Shown piece after piece: positions 58,475 to 63,918 of a DNA stretch of 64,000 nt. This stretch comes from Myxococcaceae bacterium. GTDB lineage: Bacteria; Myxococcota; Myxococcia; Myxococcales; Myxococcaceae. A program made the translations under genes and the position numbers. Each line of letters opens with the position of its first letter. The first letter of the stretch is position 1. The notes below the pieces were generated by a model that was given only the letters and a program-made list of their open reading frames with translations, was not told the DNA's origin and searched no databases. Where the stretch lies: assembly GCA_016793095.1 (NCBI GenBank), contig JAEUJQ010000043.1, positions 1 through 64,000 of the forward strand. The letters run 5' to 3'.

Positions 58475-60382
58475 CTACTTCTTCTTCGGCGGCGTCGACG
58501 GCGGCTTCTTCGGCTCGACCTTCGGCGGCGGTGGCTTCACCGGCGCGGGCGGCGGCTTCGTCGCGGCCACCGTCGTTGGTTTCGGCGCCGGCGCCGGCTT
58601 CGTCGGGGGCGCGGGCTTCTTCACCACCGGCGCTGGCGGGCTGTCGGGCTCAGCCATGAGCGGGGGCAGGGGTGGGGCCGACAGGTGCCTGACGCGGGGG
58701 AGGCCCTGAAAGACGAGGGAGTGAAAGGCGCAGGCGCCGTCGAGACAGCCGAGGGCGGCCCGCGGCGCTTCAGAGAAGGACTCCTTCCAGCCCGTGTCCA
58801 TCCAGTCGGTGCCCAGCCGCAGCCCCTCGCCCAGCACGCGCGCGTCACGGCCTTCTCCGATGACCGCGATGAGCTCACCAGTCAGCGGGTCGAGCTGCAG
58901 CTCGAGCGCCTGGGCCTTCGTCTTCGTGGGCAGCGGCGCGCGCATGTGCCCCTGCTTGTCGGGCCCGAGGTTCCATTCGAGCTCGGGGTGGCCGCCGGAC
59001 CCCGAGATGATGAGCGCGACGTAGCGGCCGCCAGTGCCGAGCAGCATGAGCGCGCTGCGGGCCTCGGGGCGTGGACCGCGAAACAGGGCGAAGAGCGGCT
59101 CGAGGCGCGACGGCTCACCGGCCTCCGTGTCCACCACGGCCGACAGGCGCAGGCCTTCCCCTTCCACCTGCGCGTCCACCAGCGCGCGGCCCGCGGTGAC
59201 GTCGTCTGGCTCGGGGAAGCGCACCCCACCTGCCTCGAGCGTCACCTGGCGCCCGCGCGCCACGACCGTCACCGTGTCGGGCCCTTCACCCAGCGTGAGC
59301 GTCTGGGTCTCCTTGTCCACCCGGCCGGGCGTGGTCAGCGCCGTCTGCGCGCCGTCGTCGCTCATCAGCGCGATGCCGGCAGGCACGCGCTTCGCCTCGA
59401 GCCCGGCGCGAAGGAAGACGGTCGAGACGATGATGGCGGCGAAGGCGACGAGGACGAGGCCGGCGATGCGGCCCACCTTGAACGCGCGCTCCTTCGCGAG
59501 GCGGAGCAGCCGCCGCGCCTTCGTCTCTTTCGACGGCGATGGCGCGAGCGTCATCGGCACCAGCAGCTCGAGCTCGGCGAGGAACGCCGCCACGGTGGGG
59601 TAGCGGTCTTCCGGGGCCGGCTTGAGGCAGCGGGCGACGATGGCGTCGAGGCGCTTGTCCAGGCCCGGCTTCTTCACCGACGGCGGGTCGAAGTGGCCCA
59701 TCGGCAGCTCGCCGGTGACGAGCTCGTACAGCATCACGCCGAGCGCGTAGAGGTCGGCGCGCGGCCCGGCCGTCTTCGCGTCCACGCGCTGCTCTGGCGC
59801 CATGTACGAGGCGGTGCCCATCGCCACGTTCGTCTGCGTCAGGTTCTGTTGGGGCGCCTGCGGGGCCTTGTCGTCGAAGCCGGCGAGCCCGAAGTCGGTC
59901 ACCTTGGGAATGCCGCCCGCCTGCTCGTCGAAGAGGATGTTCTCGGGCTTGAGGTCGCGGTGGATGACGCCGCGCCCGTGGGCGTAGTCGATGGCGCGCG
60001 CGACCTGCGACAGCGTCTTGAGCGCGGCGAGCTGGTCGAAGTCGGGGTCGCGCATGCGCTCGCGCAGCGCCGGGCCGTCCACGAACTCCATCACGAGGAA
60101 GTAGGTCTCGGCCGACTTGCCACGGTCCACGATGCTGACGATGTTCGGGTGCCGCAGCGTCGCGAGCGCCGCGGCTTCCTTCTCGAAGCGCGCGACGAAC
60201 TGCTCGTCGCGGGCGAGGTCAGGCTTGAGCAGCTTCACCGCGACGGTGCGCCCGAGCGAGAGCTGCACGGCCTGGTGCACCTCGCCCATGCCGCCCTTGC
60301 CCACGAGCTGGACGAGCCGGTAGCCAGGAATCAGGTCGTCCTGGCGAAGGCGGGCGACAGCGGTGTCTGCCGGGGCACTCAT
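58475..60382 (-). CDS. Transmembrane Ser/Thr protein kinase
   Basis: 635 residues. Kinase domain at about 20-275: GKGGMGEVH (glycine loop), Lys50 in VAVKLL, Glu69, HRDLKPEN (Asp143, Asn148), DFG (Asp163) and MAPEQR. A single membrane helix follows at about 303-325 and an extracytoplasmic domain of about 220 residues, then a Lys/Pro/Ala-rich tail of about 50 residues which may contact anionic surface polymers or peptidoglycan. It is a PknB-type Hanks kinase that probably senses envelope signals. It is 118 bases downstream of the cyclase gene on the same strand. Confidence 0.92.
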   Translation of the reverse strand: MSAPADTAVARLRQDDLIPGYRLVQLVGKGGMGEVHQAVQLSLGRTVAVKLLKPDLARDEQFVARFEKEAAALATLRHPNIVSIVDRGKSAETYFLVMEFVDGPALRERMRDPDFDQLAALKTLSQVARAIDYAHGRGVIHRDLKPENILFDEQAGGIPKVTDFGLAGFDDKAPQAPQQNLTQTNVAMGTASYMAPEQRVDAKTAGPRADLYALGVMLYELVTGELPMGHFDPPSVKKPGLDKRLDAIVARCLKPAPEDRYPTVAAFLAELELLVPMTLAPSPSKETKARRLLRLAKERAFKVGRIAGLVLVAFAAIIVSTVFLRAGLEAKRVPAGIALMSDDGAQTALTTPGRVDKETQTLTLGEGPDTVTVVARGRQVTLEAGGVRFPEPDDVTAGRALVDAQVEGEGLRLSAVVDTEAGEPSRLEPLFALFRGPRPEARSALMLLGTGGRYVALIISGSGGHPELEWNLGPDKQGHMRAPLPTKTKAQALELQLDPLTGELIAVIGEGRDARVLGEGLRLGTDWMDTGWKESFSEAPRAALGCLDGACAFHSLVFQGLPRVRHLSAPPLPPLMAEPDSPPAPVVKKPAPPTKPAPAPKPTTVAATKPPPAPVKPPPPKVEPKKPPSTPPKKK

Positions 60383-60500: not shown

Positions 60501-61940
60501 TCAACGCTGGAGCCGATAGACGCGCGTCTTCCCGCCCACGCCCTTGAGCGACACCTCGTGCTGTTCGCCGCGCCAGCCCCCTGCCTCGAGCAGCGGCTTG
60601 ACGCCCGGCGTGTCCATCACCGGCGTGGTGAGCCAGATCTCCCCCGCCTGCGCGAGGCCCTGCACGCGGGCCGCGACGTTGACGGTCTGACCGAAGTAGT
60701 CGAGGCGCTCCTCGGACGTCACGGCCAGCGCCGAGCCCTCGTGCAGGCCCACCTTGAGGCCGGTGTCGTGCCCCTCGGCCTTCAGCCCGGCGCTGAGCGA
60801 GTCCATGCCACGCATCATCTCGAGGGCGGCCCTGGTGGCGTCGGTGGGCTCGTTGAAGGAGGCCATGATGGCGTCGCCCATCGTCTTGATGATGGCGCCG
60901 TGGTTCCGCTTCACGGCGTCCGTCAACACACGGAAGTGGTCGCGCACGAACCGATACGCGCGGAGATCGCCCGTGCGGTCGTACAGCTCGGTGCTGCCCT
61001 TGAGGTCGGTGAAGAGGAGCGTGAGCGAGCGCAGCCGGAGCTGCAGGTCGGCGTCGAGCGCCTGCACCCGGAACAGATCGCGGAAGGTCTGGTTGTTGAG
61101 CAACATCTTCGCGGTGAGGAACGGCCGCATGCGGCTGGGGAAGCGGGTCACGACGTCGATGAGGCGCTCGCGGTCCACCTCGATGGCCATCACGCCGACG
61201 GTGACGCTGCGTCGGTTGGCGACCCGCACCCTGACTGGCCCTGACGCGATGGACACGTGGCCAGGCCGCAGCCCCTCCGGCAGGGCGACCGCGTCGACCT
61301 CGGTGACGCCGTGTCCCTCGCGCGCTGGCGCCAGCACCACCTGGCTGTGGGTGTCGACCGAGAGCAGCCGGTACGTCTGCCCGGCCCGCGCCTCCAGCTT
61401 CACCAGCGTCTCCTGACCGGGCGGCACGAGCTCGAGAGCCACCGTCACGCTCGCGAGGAACGCCTTGAGCTCGGCGCTGCGCTCGAAGTTCGCCGTGAAG
61501 TAGAAGGACAGGTAGTGCTGCAGGCTGCTGCTGGCGTCGAGCGCGAGATGGCGGACGCCGAGCTCGGGCGTGAAGCTCACCTCGACCCGGTCATCGAGCT
61601 CCGCCTGCAAGAGCCTGTCACAGACGACGCACAGCCACTCGCCAGAGGGCACGGCGTCGATGCGCTCCATCTGGTACTCGACGCCACCGCAACCCGGGCA
61701 CACGAGGTTGAAGCGCAGGTCGAGCAGACCCAGTCGGGCCGCGTGCAGGAAGACGTCGAGCACCTCATCGACTGGCAGGCCGTTCTCCTCGGCCACCCGC
61801 AGGGGGTTGATGCGCAGGCACCGCCAGTCGTCAGGGGCCTCGAGCAGCGCCGCCAGCGCCGAGATCGCCAGGGCCCTGAGGTTCGGCACGGACTCGAGCG
61901 ACGCGAGGCGCTGTTCGAAGAGGGGTCGGTTGAGTGCCAT
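60501..61940 (-). CDS. DUF5939-like class III adenylate/guanylate cyclase
   Basis: 479 residues from the ATG at 61940. The N-terminal part (1-270) is DUF5939-like, with a zinc-ribbon pair (CPGCGG and CVVCDR, residues about 79-105). The C-terminal catalytic domain has LTLLFTDLKGSTELYDRTGD and GAIIKTMGDAIMASF, with the two metal-binding Asp, and YFGQTVNVAARVQ with Asn and Arg for catalysis. It should make cAMP or cGMP from the triphosphate. There is no membrane helix. Confidence 0.9.
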   Translation of the reverse strand: MALNRPLFEQRLASLESVPNLRALAISALAALLEAPDDWRCLRINPLRVAEENGLPVDEVLDVFLHAARLGLLDLRFNLVCPGCGGVEYQMERIDAVPSGEWLCVVCDRLLQAELDDRVEVSFTPELGVRHLALDASSSLQHYLSFYFTANFERSAELKAFLASVTVALELVPPGQETLVKLEARAGQTYRLLSVDTHSQVVLAPAREGHGVTEVDAVALPEGLRPGHVSIASGPVRVRVANRRSVTVGVMAIEVDRERLIDVVTRFPSRMRPFLTAKMLLNNQTFRDLFRVQALDADLQLRLRSLTLLFTDLKGSTELYDRTGDLRAYRFVRDHFRVLTDAVKRNHGAIIKTMGDAIMASFNEPTDATRAALEMMRGMDSLSAGLKAEGHDTGLKVGLHEGSALAVTSEERLDYFGQTVNVAARVQGLAQAGEIWLTTPVMDTPGVKPLLEAGGWRGEQHEVSLKGVGGKTRVYRLQR

Positions 61941-62036
61941 CGGGGGCAGGGAGTGTAGCGGAACGGCATCGCACACCGAGGGACTTCCCGGCCCTGCGGC
62001 GCGACGCCTTCGATTCCCTGCGCTACCATCGAGGTC

Positions 62037-62252
62037 ATGGGACGAATCCTGCTGGTGGTGCTGGCGCTCGCGGTGCTGGGTGGCATCGCCTGGAAGGTGA
62101 TGTACGGCTCAGCCCCGGTGTCTGCCGGTGCCGACGGTCCCTCGCAGCCGAAGCAGCAGCTCGACAACGTTCGGAAGGCGGCCACGCGCATCGAGGCCGA
62201 TCAGCAGAAGGCGGCCGACGACGTCGCGCAGAAAGCCTTCGGCAACGAGTAG
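62037..62252 (+). CDS. Small membrane-anchored protein
   Basis: 71 residues. A membrane anchor (LLVVLALAVLGGIAWKVM, residues 5-22) is followed by a charged helical part (LDNVRKAATRIEADQQKAAD). It lies between the divergent cyclase and convergent PilT-like genes with a clear ATG at 62037. It may be a small structural or regulatory membrane protein. Confidence 0.65.
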   Translation: MGRILLVVLALAVLGGIAWKVMYGSAPVSAGADGPSQPKQQLDNVRKAATRIEADQQKAADDVAQKAFGNE

Positions 62253-62277: not shown

Positions 62278-63918
62278 TCACTCGTCGAGGCGACGCGGAT
62301 CCACCATCCACCGTGCGGCCTCGTCGCGGGTCAGCTCCTGCCGGCGGACCGCGCCGAGCAAGCGGTCGTCCAGCGTCAGGCCTTCAGTCTCGAGCAGCAC
62401 CGGCGGCGCTGGCGTGTCGTTGGCGCGCAGGTGCCGGCGCAGACCTTCGGACGGGAGCAGCAACTCCACCGCGTGCACGAAGCGGCCGGGCGACGAGGGC
62501 GGGCCCTGCGTTCCAGAGGAAGGGGGAATGAGGCGCAGCGACAGCACCGCCGCGAGCGACTCGGACAGCCTCCGCCGCCCGCGCGGCTCGTCGAGCGACG
62601 CCAGCTTGTGAATCACCGCCGCAGCCGAGAGGGCACGCTGGGTGACGAAGACGAGGTGCCCTTCGCTGGCGAGCTCGAGGCCCAGGTGCGCCGACGCGAC
62701 GTCGTCGACGAGGTCGAGCCCAACGACGGCGCGGGGCAGCGTGCGCACGATGGGGGCGAAGCTCGGGAGCCCGACGTCGTCGTGCAGCTCGAGCTGACGG
62801 ACGGGGCCGGTGCGCGACGGCCACGCGATGGGCTCCTCGAGGCTGACGACCTCATCACCGGTCCTGGCGCGCTCCTGCAGCAGGGCCGTCTGGAGCGTGC
62901 TTCGACCATGCCCGGCGGGCGCCGCGATGACGATGAGCCCGCGAGCCACCTTCGCGAGCGGGCCGAGCAGCTCGGGCGGCAGCGAGAGGCCCGAGACGTC
63001 AGGGCGGACGAAGTGCGTCCGGACCGAGAGCGAGGGAACACCACGCTCGACGAGCGCGGTGAGGCGGAAGCGCCCAAGTCCCTCGACGGCGAAGCTCGAG
63101 ACGATGGCGCGCTCCCGCTCGAAGCGCTCCCGATGTGAGGCGTCGAGGGTCAACGCCAGCACCCGCTCGACGTCAGCCGCACGGAGCGGGGGGCCCTCCA
63201 CCTTCCGGCCCGATGGGCCCTGGAGCATGAGCGGTTGGCCGACGATGAGGCTCAGATCAGTCGCGTGGTCGTCCCTCGCGCGCTCGAGCCAGGCGAGCAG
63301 GCCGACCTCAGGCGCCGCTGGCCGCGGCTCCAACACGGGCTCGGGGGTCTCCGCCTCGCCCACCACCTCACGCCAGGTCGGGACGAGCACCAGCAGATCC
63401 TCGGGGCTCTGGCGGGCGCGCAGGGCGGCGCTCTCGAGCAGGTTGAGCAGGTCTTCGTCCCAGCCGCCGCGGAGCAGCCGGCGCGCGGCCTCCTTCGTCT
63501 GCGCGGTGAACTGCCGCGCGATGACGCGCACCGGGAGCGAGCCGAAGAAGTGCCGGCCCGCGCCGAGCCGGTCGAGCACGCCGCCGTCCAAGAGCTTCTG
63601 CGCGGCGCGCTCGTCGTCGAGGGCGATGGTGGTGAGCTCGAGGAAACGCGCGGGGAACTCGTCGGCCTCGCGCGCCTCGACATCGAGGCCACCGAACGAC
63701 ACGCCCGCCTGCAGCACGCAGTCGCAGAGCGCGCAGGCCGCCTCCTCGTCGAGCACGCCGGTGTGCGAGGTGCGCTGCCGGGCGGCGTCGAAGGCCGCCT
63801 CGTCGAAGAAGCGGGTGAAGCGCCGGCCCGGGCGCGTCTCAGCCGACTGCACCACCGCGCCGAGCGCGTCCGGCTCCATGCACCGCGCCATCACGCCGCC
63901 GAGGACGAGCTCTGCCAT
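62278..63918 (-). CDS. PilT-like ATPase with degenerate nucleotide-binding motifs
   Basis: 546 residues from the ATG at 63918. An N-terminal extension of about 210 residues precedes a PilT/PilU-like core (ATDLSLIVGQPLMLQGPSG, FRLTALVERGVPSLSVR). Walker A reads APAGHGRST with Arg in place of the invariant Lys, and the region equivalent to the PilT GEMRD Walker B/Asp box reads VVGLDLVDDVAS. The His-box-like VFVTQRALSAAAVIHKL is partly kept. ATP hydrolysis may be impaired, so it could be a regulatory homologue of the type IV pilus retraction ATPase. Confidence 0.82.
   Translation of the reverse strand: MAELVLGGVMARCMEPDALGAVVQSAETRPGRRFTRFFDEAAFDAARQRTSHTGVLDEEAACALCDCVLQAGVSFGGLDVEAREADEFPARFLELTTIALDDERAAQKLLDGGVLDRLGAGRHFFGSLPVRVIARQFTAQTKEAARRLLRGGWDEDLLNLLESAALRARQSPEDLLVLVPTWREVVGEAETPEPVLEPRPAAPEVGLLAWLERARDDHATDLSLIVGQPLMLQGPSGRKVEGPPLRAADVERVLALTLDASHRERFERERAIVSSFAVEGLGRFRLTALVERGVPSLSVRTHFVRPDVSGLSLPPELLGPLAKVARGLIVIAAPAGHGRSTLQTALLQERARTGDEVVSLEEPIAWPSRTGPVRQLELHDDVGLPSFAPIVRTLPRAVVGLDLVDDVASAHLGLELASEGHLVFVTQRALSAAAVIHKLASLDEPRGRRRLSESLAAVLSLRLIPPSSGTQGPPSSPGRFVHAVELLLPSEGLRRHLRANDTPAPPVLLETEGLTLDDRLLGAVRRQELTRDEAARWMVDPRRLDE

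Follow-up and report, generated by a model that had tools for sequence, protein, structure and literature searches.

The window analysed here, a stretch of 64,000 nucleotides from a Myxococcaceae bacterium (contig JAEUJQ010000043.1, positions 1 to 64,000), encodes near its end a protein of the PilT lineage whose catalysis is, on well-supported sequence grounds, probably dead. The Walker A Lys is replaced by Arg, and neither the Walker B catalytic Glu nor the His-box His is present. These three catalytic positions were lost together, purifying selection maintains the gene in that state, and six paralogues that have the Lys stand beside it in one genome; on these grounds we argue that the protein is a pseudo-ATPase; the replacements, kept across species, probably mark a regulatory "dummy" motor subunit and not an engine. 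That this subunit serves as a regulator or adaptor, most likely on pilus motors, we consider an evenly balanced proposition, because the link to pili is drawn solely from descent and fold. The PilT family itself is known, and what is new is a probable pseudo-enzyme branch of it with an added domain. Its carriers are uncultured relatives of social soil bacteria, and the protein is a cousin of the motor which retracts pili. Kinases have regulatory pseudo-enzymes; if our reading is true, a natural branch dead in three motifs and living beside Lys-bearing paralogues would mean that pilus motors have them as well.

The gene, referred to below as the Arg type, and its parts lie in the window as follows:

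62281..63918, minus strand: Arg-type PilT-like gene, 546 amino acids, with the ATG at 63918 and the stop codon at 62278-62280
63361..63918, minus strand: N-terminal domain, residues 1-186, a confident alpha/beta fold (AlphaFold2) with no significant Pfam family
63307..63360, minus strand: low-confidence linker, residues 187-204 (pLDDT <50), where the alignment is variable
62281..63306, minus strand: PilT-like N2D and C2D, residues 205-546 (VIA-align Z 26.7 to PilT4 6ojx)
62896..62925, minus strand: Walker A region AAPAGHGRST, in which the codon of Arg339 is 62902-62904 and the first Gly of the motif is Ala
62824..62847, minus strand: equivalent of the Asp box, EEP instead of EDP in the alignment with the genome's own PilTs
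62710..62730, minus strand: equivalent of Walker B, with Asp402 on the PilT Gly and Leu403 on the PilT catalytic Glu (MAFFT)
62635..62661, minus strand: equivalent of the His box, with Arg428 where the catalytic His stands and His421 on a His
62569..62577, minus strand: Arg-Arg-Arg 448-450, found in 12/12 family members and absent from the distant relative G138
62425..62442, minus strand: LRRHLR segment, the counterpart of PilT AIRNLIRE

Pfam family T2SSE (PF00437) matched residues 322-465 (2.7e-07; 30 bits, above the gathering cut-off of 24.9), and the NCBIfam PilT/PilU model TIGR01420 gave 94.2 bits over residues 208-536, far below its curated cut-off of 319.1. The best solved relatives in a sequence search of the PDB were PilT chains (top E 5.8e-24). 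A full-length model predicted from 12 sequences had a mean pLDDT of 80, with low confidence at residues 187-204 and 470-480, and its PilT half superimposed on 6ojx over 329 residues with an rmsd of 5.1 (VIA-align). The protein has the predicted two-domain fold of the PilT/PilU retraction ATPases and lacks their Walker A Lys, Walker B Glu and His-box His. The preliminary description, made from the letters of the window, had given it an N-terminal extension of 210 residues, and the measured value, about 204 residues ahead of the PilT fold, is close to this.

When 96 genomes of the same family were searched with the protein, 13 gave a match, the window genome among them. They comprise six of the seven genomes in the window's genus and five of the six in g4, with a single genome from each of g13 and g26. 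Extension by a profile search to 145 genomes of the order added the more distant G138, from another family, in which the N-terminal domain and P-loop are present and the C-terminal part is missing. One family gene (G094) lies in two pieces on different contigs, neither of which includes the Walker A region, and was excluded from the motif counts; these refer to 13 rows, namely the 12 family sequences in which the motif can be read, that of the window among them, and G138. In G012 the contig used does not include the first residues of the protein. For 11 of the 13 genes an identical protein, five residues at each end being excluded from the comparison, occurs in named metagenome-assembled genomes (MAGs) labelled Myxococcales, Myxococcaceae, Archangiaceae, Archangium or Myxococcus. 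An alignment query against the named contig records gave 13 loci, 11 with the gene; the other two are a second overlapping fragment of a MAG already counted (L051) and a distant ATPase match only (L052). A query with a single protein against the same records gave no match. No isolate carrying the gene was seen in the scan of these records, all named relatives being MAGs.

Relatives consisting of MAGs throughout might point to a sequencing or assembly artefact. We find this scarcely credible, as the same Arg stands in 11 differently named MAG records, some of which come out of a single study, as well as in G138 and the window genome itself, and is written in three synonymous codons. A frameshift was likewise rejected: the 13 relatives are open, and the single stop counted in the match to G047, and likewise in that to G011, falls beyond the end of the ORF.

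The P-loop of the window protein reads APAGHGRST where PilT has GSGKST, the codon of Arg339 being CGA (62904-62902). This exchange (GHGRST) had been singled out in the preliminary description, which named a Lys in the orthologues, or an artefact, as what would speak against it; position 339 is Arg in 13/13 readable rows, with CGA, CGC or CGG and never AAR as the codon. Among the P-loop glycines, Gly338 is kept in every row and Gly336 in all but G089, which has Ala there (ASGRSA); the first Gly, at position 333, is lost in five rows, all from genus g1, of which four have Ala there and one has Ser. The alteration of Walker B, also claimed beforehand, is real: in the MAFFT alignment with the genome's own six Lys-bearing PilTs the position of the catalytic Glu is Leu (residue 403 of the window protein), Val or His in 13/13, and Asp402 falls on the Gly preceding it, an alignment ambiguous by one residue since phmmer pairs Asp402 with the catalytic Glu itself. 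Of the two His in the His box, the second (H229/H230) is Arg in 12 rows and Ser in one, and the first (His421) is retained by the window protein only. The Asp box has changed from EDP to EEP (12 rows) or DEP (one row), with Glu362 and Pro363 retained throughout. Family members have also gained invariant residues of their own, among them Arg428, His437, Arg448-450 and LRRH. The six PilT-type paralogues of the window genome keep Lys, Glu and His, its three PilB/GspE-type paralogues also keep the Lys, and the PilT marker rows have Lys in 33/33 genomes. The suspected loss or change of ATPase activity is thus well supported, as far as a sequence can speak for it, by the conserved replacement of Lys, catalytic Glu and His-box His.

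The same alignment offers something to an active but rewired NTPase, in which Arg would do the work of Lys, and Asp402 or the Asp-box Glu362 that of the catalytic Glu: Gly338, Glu362, Pro363 and Asp402 are in all 13 rows and Gly336 in 12. Because Glu362 and Pro363 are universal and Asp402 stands in the classical Walker B place, nucleotide binding, and even slow hydrolysis, may indeed remain. The disappearance of the His-box His, the Ala or Ser at the first P-loop Gly in 5/13 rows and the ASGRSA of G089 nevertheless render a rewired enzyme unlikely.

The Arg-type gene is under purifying selection, with NG86 omega values of 0.14-0.40 across eight pairs, and the constraint on its N-terminal domain is similar to that on the ATPase half. 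In a tree of 43 rows the Arg type forms a single group (100/96) which includes the relative from the other family of the order. Two other degenerate PilT types, one with Val or Thr for the Walker A Lys (100/100) and one truncated (100/98), each form one group, and the Arg and truncated types are sisters (89/98), a placement which may be long-branch attraction. The long stem branches of this tree, the missing C-terminal part of G138, the truncation of another degenerate type and the lack of a match to the Arg type in G093 and G013, genomes of carrying genera that are 85% and 79% complete, would suit a decaying paralogue without function. This explanation is very improbable given 13 rows with an open frame, omega well below 1, a shared set of new invariant residues (R428, RRR, LRRH) and an N-terminal domain constrained like the ATPase half.

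When 195 genomes of the phylum were scanned for a PilT-type P-loop with Arg, written as a DNA pattern with CGN, 14 of them matched. With Lys in the pattern 191/195 matched, and with the Arg pattern read backwards 0/195, on which ground chance matching was rejected. The 14 are ten family genomes, G138, G146, G149 and G182; by reading, the match in G182 is an unrelated ATPase and those in G146 and G149 are PilB-like with other damaged motifs. These two loci (L135 and L136, family f11), with a Walker A Arg and changed Asp and His boxes, are a separate instance of the same Lys-to-Arg change. The pattern recovers 10/12 readable family members. The two that escape it are G092, where Ser takes the Gly/Ala position, and G089, which has neither the Gly nor the Thr. 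Two other PilT paralogues bearing Arg are not matched either: L100 of G043, in which the Arg is AGG and which adjoins another PilT gene, and the truncated type of G012. In G043 (L155:4903-7981) two PilT ORFs lie on the same strand about 10 bases apart, one of them long and the other short with Arg (AGG) in its P-loop. As Arg is found in other PilT- and PilB-like proteins as well, the change arose more than once in these ATPases, and among the cases it is the present Arg type that was observed as a conserved group.

The window genome contains two more degenerate PilTs. The first, L085 (G000:C76:101077-102483), has Val for the Walker A Lys; ten aligned rows, L085 among them, divide into five with Val, all g1, and five with Thr, from g4 and g26. 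This type adjoins the same gene, the product of which presumably resembles CapA, in the window genome and in four compared genomes (G091, G010, G011 and G089). The second, L115 (G000:C79:129035-129811), is truncated and its P-loop is erased. By reading of the search result its type occurs in three of 92 genomes (L115, L116 and L117), the P-loop being erased in two and GSGRSG in the G012 relative.

In the same 92 genomes the Arg and Val/Thr types occur together in 11, the Arg type by itself in two (G009 and G047), the Val/Thr type by itself in none and neither in 79; four of the 96 family genomes, all g20 and all without the Arg type, fall outside this count. The Val/Thr type was set apart from other PilTs at about 1e-74 versus 3e-39, a line drawn after inspection of the list. 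Fisher's test gives p 1.5e-12 with relatedness ignored, and on the PilT marker tree, which is weakly resolved (19/30 inner branches open), two changes of carrier label suffice even with G138 included; the co-occurrence is therefore no proof of a functional link. We think it quite improbable that the two separately decayed PilTs are kept together, in one group of myxobacteria, as a non-hydrolysing, possibly mixed ring acting as clutch or brake on active PilT motors. If true, such a joint ring would be a dedicated pseudo-motor layer of pilus control.

Modelled alone, the N-terminal domain is predicted with high confidence (AlphaFold2 pLDDT 94.9, pTM 0.90). A Pfam scan of this domain in 12 members gave no significant match, PF08974 included; a PDB sequence search gave none, and PHROGs none on the domain, one unnamed family matching on the ATPase half. 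In the fold comparison the domain comes closest to YfbM of E. coli (1ryl; DUF1877, PF08974), with a VIA-align Z of 4.9 over 124 residues, a value below the trusted range (next unrelated entry, Z 3.1), and YfbM is also the top Foldseek match (E 0.66). The likeness is weak, and a profile comparison with seven DUF1877 relatives does not support membership (hhalign 2.8%), so that we treat YfbM as a lead and not as a family assignment. A literature search on YfbM and DUF1877 yielded nothing useful. A related domain occurs in 13 genomes of genus g6 (hhalign 97%, E 5e-11), and in the eight of these that were read the protein has no PilT half. The g6 proteins (L077-L084) are about 330 amino acids long from the chosen start, in open frames of 510-518 amino acids, and one copy was without a match in Pfam.

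The neighbours of the Arg-type gene vary between genera. A Pfam scan of ten neighbouring proteins found no pilus protein and, within these ten, no sign of a pilus operon. Five g1 genomes and G047 have a gene for an FAD-monooxygenase/FMN-oxidoreductase fusion upstream on the same strand, with a gap that ranges from tens of bases to some 2 kb. In the g4 genomes G008, G009, G010 and G011 the Arg-type gene follows gyrB (Pfam was run on the G011 copy), and in G011 the gyrB stop and the Arg-type start overlap as TGATG. These surroundings, together with the N-terminal relative which exists without a PilT half, are the evidence for the strongest rival, a pseudo-ATPase outside pili, the PilT scaffold and its N-terminal domain having been recruited to an unrelated process. 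We hold this to be possible but doubtful. The context shifts from genus to genus and hence points to no single alternative pathway, and the C-terminal segment of family members still follows PilT AIRNLIRE.

Several other features of the neighbourhood may be recorded. A small ORF on the plus strand at 62037-62249 (71 amino acids, one hydrophobic stretch) is convergent with the Arg-type gene; it is 58-71% identical in four other genomes of the genus and has no Pfam match. A Ser/Thr protein kinase gene at 58478-60382 stays close by in G091 and G095. Between it and the Arg-type gene lies an ORF at 60504-61976, for which G091 has no room at that place and which may hold a class III cyclase-like stretch.

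Returning to a regulatory or adaptor subunit of pilus motors, we suggest that the Arg-type protein would perform no ATP hydrolysis of use. The P-loop Arg, Arg428 and the RRR segment would keep the pocket charged, and the subunit could thereby hold phosphate, nucleotide or one fixed conformation without turnover. More tentatively, it may form a PilT-type ring or join one, and may dock on the pilus platform or on active PilT as an adaptor or brake, much as a dead PilT does for PilU in Vibrio cholerae; the N-terminal domain might provide localisation or signal input as a regulatory or docking part.

The roles of the PilT motifs are taken from the portions consulted of PMC6858323, PMC6821130 and PMC5065972. 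The Walker A Lys of PilT is described as invariantly conserved in the consulted parts of PMC6821130, according to which Vibrio cholerae PilT K136A still allows PilU-driven retraction and a pilT deletion does not, and E204A reduces retraction frequency to about the level of the double deletion. In Pseudomonas aeruginosa twitching is abolished by PilT E204A or H229A (PMC6858323, in part). A dead PilT can therefore serve as an adaptor, as K136A does, depending on the conformation it holds, but the poor retraction of E204A means that it is not invariably a good one. In open-access literature on PilT paralogues, Walker A Arg and degenerate Walker motifs, represented mostly by the openings of abstracts, we recognised no natural Arg-type PilT.

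Compared with PilT (TIGR01420; 6ojx, 3jvv, 2ewv), the Arg type has the same two-domain fold (residues 204-546), retains two P-loop glycines out of three in almost every row, and shares the Glu-Pro of the Asp box and a recognisable C-terminal A-x-R-x-x-[LI]-R. It differs in its Walker A Arg, in lacking the catalytic Glu and the His-box His, in its additional N-terminal domain and in scoring under the family cut-off. PilU (PDB 9n32) likewise has a PilT-like fold and is a PilT paralogue in an auxiliary role, but its Walker A Lys is conserved and its ATPase activity matters, according to the consulted parts of PMC6821130. The V. cholerae K136A and E204A proteins have lost the same catalytic positions, and the first of them supports retraction through PilU; they are, however, laboratory point mutants with Ala, whereas the Arg type is a natural, conserved lineage with Arg. 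It thus offers natural material for the role of a non-hydrolysing PilT ring, a subject that the sources, as far as consulted, have so far approached by point mutants.
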